Made by a program: the position numbers and the translations under genes. Below the pieces are notes generated by a model, which saw nothing but the letters and a program-made list of their open reading frames with translations, ran no database searches and was not told the origin of the DNA. This document shows, piece after piece, positions 12,672-14,414 of a stretch of DNA of 36,667 nucleotides. The stretch comes from Roseinatronobacter sp. GTDB taxonomy: Bacteria; Pseudomonadota; Alphaproteobacteria; Rhodobacterales; Rhodobacteraceae. Location: contig JAIUNA010000002.1 in assembly GCA_022565265.1 (NCBI GenBank), positions 1 through 36,667 on the forward strand. The letters run 5' to 3'. The stretch's first letter is position 1. Every line of letters begins with the position of its first letter.

Positions 12672-13010
12672 TCACGCCGCCGAGAGTTGATCCCAGCATT
12701 CCAGCGCCTTGCCTGCATACATCACCGCAGGCCCGCCGCCCATCTGGATGGCCATTGCCAGCACATCGCCCATTTCTTCGCGCGTGGCGCCGGCTTTCAT
12801 CAGGGCTTCTACATGAAAGGCGATACACGGCTCGCAGCGCACGGCGATGGCAATGCCAAGGGCCACAAATTCCTTTTCCTTCACACCCAGCACCCCGCCT
12901 TGCTTGACGGCCATGGACAATGTGCCAAAGCCGTTCATCGTATCGGGGATTGTTTTTGCCAATGCGCGGCTTTTGTCGCGCGTCTGGGCGATGAAGGCGG
13001 GGTAATCCAT
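12672..13010 (-). CDS. Carboxymuconolactone decarboxylase / AhpD-like family protein
   Basis: GVKEKEFVALGIAIAVRCEPCIAFHVEALMKAGATREEMGDVLAMAIQMGGGPAVMYAGKAL; CxxC and downstream His. Confidence 0.92.
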   Translation of the reverse strand: MDYPAFIAQTRDKSRALAKTIPDTMNGFGTLSMAVKQGGVLGVKEKEFVALGIAIAVRCEPCIAFHVEALMKAGATREEMGDVLAMAIQMGGGPAVMYAGKALECWDQLSAA

Positions 13011-13056
13011 GTCATGTCCTCACATTTTGTTTGCTGAATGTGAGGGCATGACATGG
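13007..13056 (-). promoter_or_regulatory. Large hairpin covering SD and start codon of the AhpD-like gene
   Basis: CCATGTCATGTCCTCACATT-ttgtttgctg-AATGTGAGGGCATGACATGG; 20-nt arms with one non-Watson-Crick position. Confidence 0.8.
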
Positions 13057-13082
13057 CCGCGCCGGGGCCGCGATGATCTGTA

Positions 13083-13745
13083 TCAAATACGGAAAAACGG
13101 TTGCGCCAATCGCGGCAGAAGCGCGCGGAATTTCAACGGCGCATCGGTCACGGCCAGACAGATGCAATCCTCGCCCGGTTCGGCCACGGGTTGATGCTGG
13201 GTTGCTTCATCCGCTATTTCCACATCGCCGCGCCCGAAACGGGCCTCTTCATCCGAGAACGCCCCCTGCAAGACCAGTGTCAATTCCAGCCCGCGATGGC
13301 CATGGTCGGGAACAGCCGCGCCCGCCGGGATATAGAGCAAGCGCGCTGTCGCATGTTCCGAAGTGGGGATCAGCATCTGGCGCACACCGCCGCCCAATGC
13401 GCGCCAGCGAATTTTGTCCACATCCGGGCCGACATATTCACATAGCGGAGCAGGCAAAAGCGCGTTTTGCACCGGGCGTTGCGGGCTGCGCGCCACTGGT
13501 GCGCCCGTCTTGATCCGGGCCAGTGTCGCGGCCAAGGCGCCGGATTCCATACGCGCACTGCTTCCGGCTGCGCCCTCCAGCGCCCGATCCAGAACAGCCC
13601 CGCCCACCGCATCAAAGCTGGCCAGCCGCGCGCGGCACTCATCACACAGCGCAATATGCGTGGCGACAGCCAGATTGAAGGCTTCTGGCAGGGTTCCTGC
13701 GGAATAGGCCATCAACAAAGTGTCGCTCAGATGGTGGGTAATCAT
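13083..13745 (-). CDS. chrR: ChrR-type zinc anti-sigma factor with C-terminal cupin domain
   Basis: MITHHLSDTLLMAYSAGTLPEAFNLAVATHIALCDECRA (ASD zinc ligands) and cupin HGHRGLELTLVLQGAFSDEEARFGRGDVEIADEATQHQP. Confidence 0.93.
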   Translation of the reverse strand: MITHHLSDTLLMAYSAGTLPEAFNLAVATHIALCDECRARLASFDAVGGAVLDRALEGAAGSSARMESGALAATLARIKTGAPVARSPQRPVQNALLPAPLCEYVGPDVDKIRWRALGGGVRQMLIPTSEHATARLLYIPAGAAVPDHGHRGLELTLVLQGAFSDEEARFGRGDVEIADEATQHQPVAEPGEDCICLAVTDAPLKFRALLPRLAQPFFRI

Positions 13746-13759
13746 GGTCGTCGTCTTTC

Positions 13760-14302
13760 TTAACTCAGGGAATGGCGCAAACGCTCCAGTGCCAATCTGA
13801 TGCGGGATTTGATGGTTCCAAGGGGCAGGCCGGTTTGTTCTGCAATTTCGCTATGGCTCAGGTCTCCGAAATAGGCGCGTTCAATCATCACGCGCTGTTT
13901 TTCGGGCAGGCTGGCAATGGCTGCGGCCAGTTGGTCGCTTTCTTGCTGCAAGCCCAGCACATCGAATTGGTCAGGTTCCTCTTCCGGCCCCCAATTCAGG
14001 TCTTCGGGTTCCGGCCTGCGATCGCGGCGCAACATGTCGATACGGCGGTTGCGGGCGATGGTGAAAATCCATGTCGCCACAGAGGCGCGCGAGGGGTCAA
14101 ATTGCGCAGCCTTTTTCCAGACTGTGACCATGACATCTTGCGCGCATTCCTCTGCCATCGCGTGCTCTGCGCCCGATTTCATCAGAAAGGCTTTGACCCT
14201 TGGGGCAAAATGTTCGAACAAAGCGGTAAACGCGTCTGTATCCTGATAATCGGCCACCTTCCTGAGAAGGATAACCCATTCTGCTGACTGTCCTGCATTC
14301 AC
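13760..14302 (-). CDS. rpoE: RpoE-type ECF sigma factor (ECF11, ChrR partner); probable GTG start
   Basis: FAPRVKAFLMKSGAEHAMAEECAQDVMVTVWKKAAQFDPSRASVATWIFTIARNRRIDMLRRDRRPEPEDLNWGPEEEPDQ; ORF opens at 14455 but the homologous N-terminus begins near VNAGQSAEW (GTG at 14302). Confidence 0.92.
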   Translation of the reverse strand: MNAGQSAEWVILLRKVADYQDTDAFTALFEHFAPRVKAFLMKSGAEHAMAEECAQDVMVTVWKKAAQFDPSRASVATWIFTIARNRRIDMLRRDRRPEPEDLNWGPEEEPDQFDVLGLQQESDQLAAAIASLPEKQRVMIERAYFGDLSHSEIAEQTGLPLGTIKSRIRLALERLRHSLS

Positions 14303-14414
14303 TGCCGATTGCCTTTTGTCACGGCGAGTATCCTCACCTTGTGCCAATACCTTATCCGCAGCCAGTGCGGCTTGTCGAGAAATCTGGTCAGGGCGTGCGA
14401 CATCAAACATGTTC

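Follow-up and report, generated by a model that had tools for sequence, protein, structure and literature searches.

A palindrome across the start of an AhpD-like gene in Roseinatronobacter is a candidate SqrR-type operator

Introduction

What might a long palindrome do when it lies across both the ribosome-binding site and the start codon of a gene? The window analyzed here, a stretch of 36,667 nucleotides from a Roseinatronobacter sp. contig (JAIUNA010000002.1), raises this question on its minus strand, where an inverted repeat at 13007-13056, with 20-nt arms (13007-13026 and 13037-13056) that pair at 19 of 20 positions (95% complementary) around a 10-nt loop, covers the start of an AhpD-like gene next to chrR. 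A preliminary description of this DNA proposed chiefly that the hairpin is an RNA switch locking the Shine-Dalgarno (SD) sequence and AUG, and secondarily that it is a palindromic DNA operator. The arms, position, and strand it gave for the hairpin agree with the sequence; of its two options, it is the operator that our analysis supports.

The known regulatory system that bears most closely on this locus is SqrR. SqrR is an ArsR-family repressor that senses sulfane sulfur (persulfide). It binds the site ATTC-N8-GAAT, according to a passage of PMC9774250 that cites this word as the RcSqrR recognition site, and it leaves the promoter once a tetrasulfide bond links its two cysteines (PMC9995734).

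Results

The palindrome covers the translation start of a CMD/AhpD-like gene (12672-13010, minus strand) whose 112-residue product carries a CxxC motif (CEPC) and matches PF02627 (E 1e-19), the ahpD_dom model TIGR00778, and the AhpD structure PDB 5dik (E 1e-24). Because the N-terminal sequence MDYPAFIA is kept in relatives, the ATG at 13010-13008 is well placed as the start codon, and it lies beneath the palindrome together with a Shine-Dalgarno-like AGGA (13017-13020, minus strand) read directly in the GTGAGGA of the right arm, just as first proposed. Also correctly recognized was the upstream neighbor chrR (13083-13745, minus strand; TIGR02451, E 1e-69), encoding an anti-sigma factor with a cupin domain; the CMD reading frame starts 76 nt downstream of it on the same strand. 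chrR is paired with an ECF sigma factor gene (13760-14407, minus strand; PF04542/PF08281 and TIGR02937), whose start was taken at the ATG at 14407.

This inverted repeat is the longest and strongest of short range in the window. The chance expectation for its exact pattern is 0 occurrences, none of 100 dinucleotide shuffles matched its score in a stem search, and the 121-nt region around it folds as RNA with a minimum free energy of -51.6 kcal/mol (z = -5.6). Pattern searches of the whole genome, a check already suggested in the preliminary description, found a single copy, which excludes a dispersed repeat or mobile palindrome. A known RNA family was likewise rejected, there being no Rfam match at the palindrome (the window's only match is a tRNA), and a terminator search called no intrinsic terminator at the hairpin.

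Conservation is confined to the inner 24 bp of the palindrome, TCACATTC-N8-AAATGTGA, with the outer arms CCATGTCATGCC and GGACATGACATGG not conserved in sequence. This core, TCACATTC-AGCAAACA-AAATGTGA (13020-13043, minus strand), is a SqrR/BigR-type dyad made up of ATTC (13039-13036), an 8-nt spacer (13035-13028), and AAAT (13027-13024), and thus has 7 of the 8 positions of ATTC-N8-GAAT; the consensus across CMD orthologues is TCAYATKC-N8-GMATRTGA, and all 8 positions are present in eight relatives. We scanned the window with a symmetric matrix built from 51 distinct sites at the sqrR and persulfide dioxygenase promoters of the genus, with zero CMD sites among them, and the palindrome (13018-13045) ranked first at 15.2, the next site scoring 6.5. 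Two features of the core count against an operator: the AAAT half-site in place of GAAT, and a matrix score that falls below the training-site mean of 26.5. Operators of the NsrR and IscR types were considered and set aside because ATTC-N8-GAAT fits better and is backed by neighboring genes and the literature. Upstream of the CMD gene of Gemmobacter aquatilis, a perfect palindrome with 12-bp arms, CCTGTCATTCTG-cccg-CAGAATGACAGG, lies over the SD and includes ATTC-N8-GAAT.

A pattern built from the CMD palindrome cores and scanned over 37 genomes of the genus recurs at other sulfane-sulfur genes. Matches lie upstream of persulfide dioxygenase genes at four loci (MBL-fold proteins whose PDB relatives include ETHE1), upstream of TsoY genes at three (NF047644 for one of them, L109), upstream of one gene for a two-cysteine SqrR, and at two YeeE/YedE loci beside a SqrR paralogue; further matches inside coding regions look like chance. 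The closest PDB relatives of the SqrR-like ArsR gene beside YeeE/YedE are 6o8k-6o8o, an ArsR-family regulator that we take to be R. capsulatus SqrR. Furthermore, about 150-195 nt ahead of many sqrR genes of the genus lies ATATTC-N8-GAA or ATATTC-N8-GCA, and a dioxygenase-like gene in the same genome as the window is preceded by ACATTC-N8-CAATAT.

The position of the core among CMD orthologues helps separate a DNA site from an RNA structure. In 19 orthologues it lies at -29 to -32 from the ATG, abutting the SD, and in 12 others, which lack chrR, at about -21/-22 or -36/-41. The site thus keeps its sequence and internal spacing yet shifts relative to the SD and ATG, and its placement is independent of the ribosome-binding site. 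A hairpin over the SD and AUG is found only in a chrR-linked subset, the remaining orthologues having the motif elsewhere or not at all, and the full 20-nt arms occur only in the window; the nearest relative, L004, has a shorter, 8-bp version of the outer stem (arms CCATGGCA/TGCCATGG). The preliminary description had asked for compensatory changes in relatives. These do exist, both in the inner stem of 6-7 pairs that abuts the SD in the 19 relatives (for example, C-G to T-A) and as one G-C to T-A double change in the outer arms of L004, but we rejected them as proof of an RNA structure because the dyad symmetry of an operator yields an identical signal. Two aspects of the comparison speak against an operator: about half of the CMD orthologues, including one clade within the genus, lack the site though SqrR is present, and dyad symmetry is tighter in the CMD group than among control operators and extends in part into the SD, which a pure operator need not do. 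On a CMD protein tree that is weakly resolved, with few columns, members of a position class group together, though the classes are patchily retained, and some clades have no site.

The DNA from the chrR stop codon into the palindrome carries the signals of a predicted local promoter. An FNR/FixK-type box, TTGATACAGATCAT (13073-13086, minus strand), overlaps the chrR stop codon (13083-13085) at -76 from the ATG, and its pattern TTGAYNNNNRTCAW matches two places in the window, one of them this box. The orthologue form TTGA(T/C)nCAGATCAA is found in 51 of 68 orthologues at -67 to -80 from the ATG (mode -72), including orthologues without an upstream chrR. When sequences are aligned on this box, a -10-like word appears at offsets 33-38 with a conserved A at offset 37; in the window it reads TGTCAT (13048-13053, minus strand; TGCGAT or TGCGAC in relatives) and falls within the outer left arm. 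Judging from class II FNR spacing, transcription is predicted to start within the left arm, at about 13038-13041. Because of this overlap, local transcripts should begin within the arm and would be missing half of the 20-bp stem. Positions 13042-13056, which make up the outer left arm, should be promoter DNA that is absent from the local mRNA. A leader that begins at the predicted start could form no more than a short, weak stem (about -7 to -9 kcal/mol). That the pairing continues almost perfectly across the AUG is probably a local extra, due in part to a fortuitous complementarity between the -10 word CATGTCATG and CATGACATGG around the start codon. The genome also encodes an FnrL-like protein of the FNR family with N-terminal cysteines CKDCPIRHRAVCARC, whose gene adjoins a hemN-like gene.

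Homologues of SqrR are present in 36 of the 37 genus genomes, and two-cysteine orthologues are widespread in the genus. The exception counts against an operator in the window, as the homologue search across these 37 genomes did not find sqrR in the assembly from which the window comes, which is 88% complete. In the relative G007, the two flanks of sqrR match contigs C146 and C84 of this assembly, with sqrR lying between them; C146 ends six bases past the flank match and C84 shortly past its own. Since the matches end at contig ends, sqrR is probably present and unassembled in the gap between them. A repeat of about 170-200 bp, seen in G007 at L211:7902-8107, is dispersed over some 30 places in the genome of the window with 74-97% identity, some of them at contig ends. 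Also found in the genus is a second SqrR-like ArsR family (L129-L146), which has a CERDHSV cysteine and no second, C-terminal cysteine and which lies beside YeeE/YedE at least twice.

Discussion

It seems likely that the palindrome is a transcriptional operator and that the AhpD-like protein is made from a promoter activated by FnrL and repressed by SqrR. This reading draws on features of the sequence: the motif, which recurs at sulfur genes, together with the FNR-type box, the spacing, and the pattern of conservation. An FNR-type activator, putatively FnrL, would bind at 13073-13086 and drive a promoter with its -10 element at about 13048-13053 and its start inside the left arm, while a dimeric SqrR-type repressor on TCACATTC-N8-AAATGTGA would cover the start site and block transcription. 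A rise in sulfane sulfur (persulfides and polysulfides), the presumed inducer, would bridge the repressor's two cysteines by sulfur and release it from the DNA. Synthesis of the AhpD-like CxxC protein would then follow, mainly at low oxygen.

In regard to known systems, the locus resembles the operators of SqrR (Rhodobacter capsulatus), BigR, and YgaV in having an ATTC-N8-GAAT dyad close to the promoter and transcription start, and in this genus such operators seem to serve sqrR itself as well as genes for persulfide dioxygenase, TsoY, and YeeE/YedE. It differs from them in its AhpD-like CMD target, its AAAT half-site, its extended 20-nt palindrome, and the added FNR-type box. With the FnrL/FixK-type class II promoters of alphaproteobacteria it has in common the TTGAY-N4-RTCAA box, centered near -40, and a -10-like word near the expected spacing, whereas here a repressor operator also covers the predicted start, and the binder is putative. 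Among the papers searched, none named both SqrR and carboxymuconolactone decarboxylase; the AhpD-like CMD gene is a likely new target of the known SqrR-type system.

Alternatively, the element may be dual, a DNA operator that in addition forms an RNA hairpin to block CMD translation on transcripts that read through from the sigma factor gene and chrR. The gene order and the short gap permit such read-through, and the greater symmetry of CMD sites over control operators would be in keeping with a second function in RNA. The cognate outer arms also pair better than arms permuted among species (-9.35 versus -7.92 kcal/mol, p = 0.005; p = 0.02 without the window), but this effect fades when both the window and L004 are left out (p = 0.09), the test was post hoc on related species, and the outer stems are short or interrupted in most relatives. 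We consider a dual element unlikely on balance. It is similarly unlikely that CMD is, by this means, made only from its own regulated promoter and that the same palindrome insulates two stress circuits from each other.

Another regulator that recognizes a similar word, such as the ArsR-type SqrR paralogue beside YeeE/YedE, could be the true binder. This second family occurs in about half of the genus genomes, and at two of its loci a similar palindrome lies between the paralogue and YeeE/YedE. Yet G007 and G006 possess the CMD palindrome and, among these homologues, only the two-cysteine SqrR, and the paralogue lacks the second sensing cysteine, all of which makes this alternative improbable. 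The RNA switch, in which a 20-bp hairpin in the 5' leader would keep the SD and AUG hidden unless opened by temperature, a protein, or an sRNA, is the least probable reading and finds no support as the principal role despite the very stable fold and the paired changes. In other orthologues the motif lies at -22 or -37/-41 and forms no SD hairpin. Full outer arms extending to the AUG are peculiar to the window, where the left one overlaps the predicted -10 element, and no Rfam family matches.

The preferred reading, a SqrR-type operator, also bears on how such loci are interpreted. RNA thermometers and other leader hairpins that sequester the SD resemble this palindrome on paper, in that a stem spans the SD and AUG, but here what is conserved is a DNA word that also occurs at other positions, and transcription from the local promoter should miss part of the left arm. 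Thus, a DNA operator over a start region can mimic a riboswitch-like hairpin. The locus likewise resembles the ChrR-sigma E singlet-oxygen operon of Rhodobacter, with the sigma factor gene and chrR directly upstream on the same strand; it differs in that CMD has promoter signals of its own, retained where orthologues lack chrR. The adjacency noted in the preliminary description holds, and the functional link to singlet oxygen that it suggested is doubtful because orthologues without an upstream chrR keep the FNR-type box, several of them the operator too. We found no common functional theme among the CMD neighbors where chrR is absent. These observations speak against presuming a role in singlet-oxygen defense merely from a neighboring chrR. 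The operator model instead predicts an inducer of the AhpD-like protein, and it would tie this uncharacterized CxxC protein of haloalkaliphilic, sulfur-oxidizing Rhodobacterales to sulfane-sulfur sensing and oxygen limitation.

Related motifs occur at other genes in the genus. In two relatives, a kynureninase-like gene is preceded by a similar palindrome (TTATATTCAACTGTTTGCATATGA at L115:1783-1806 and TCATATGCGGACAACCGAATATTA at L119:1744-1767), and the motif TCACATTCGGCAATTGACATGTGA is found in G022 (L110:1826-1849) about 260 nt upstream of a gene for cytochrome oxidase subunit I.
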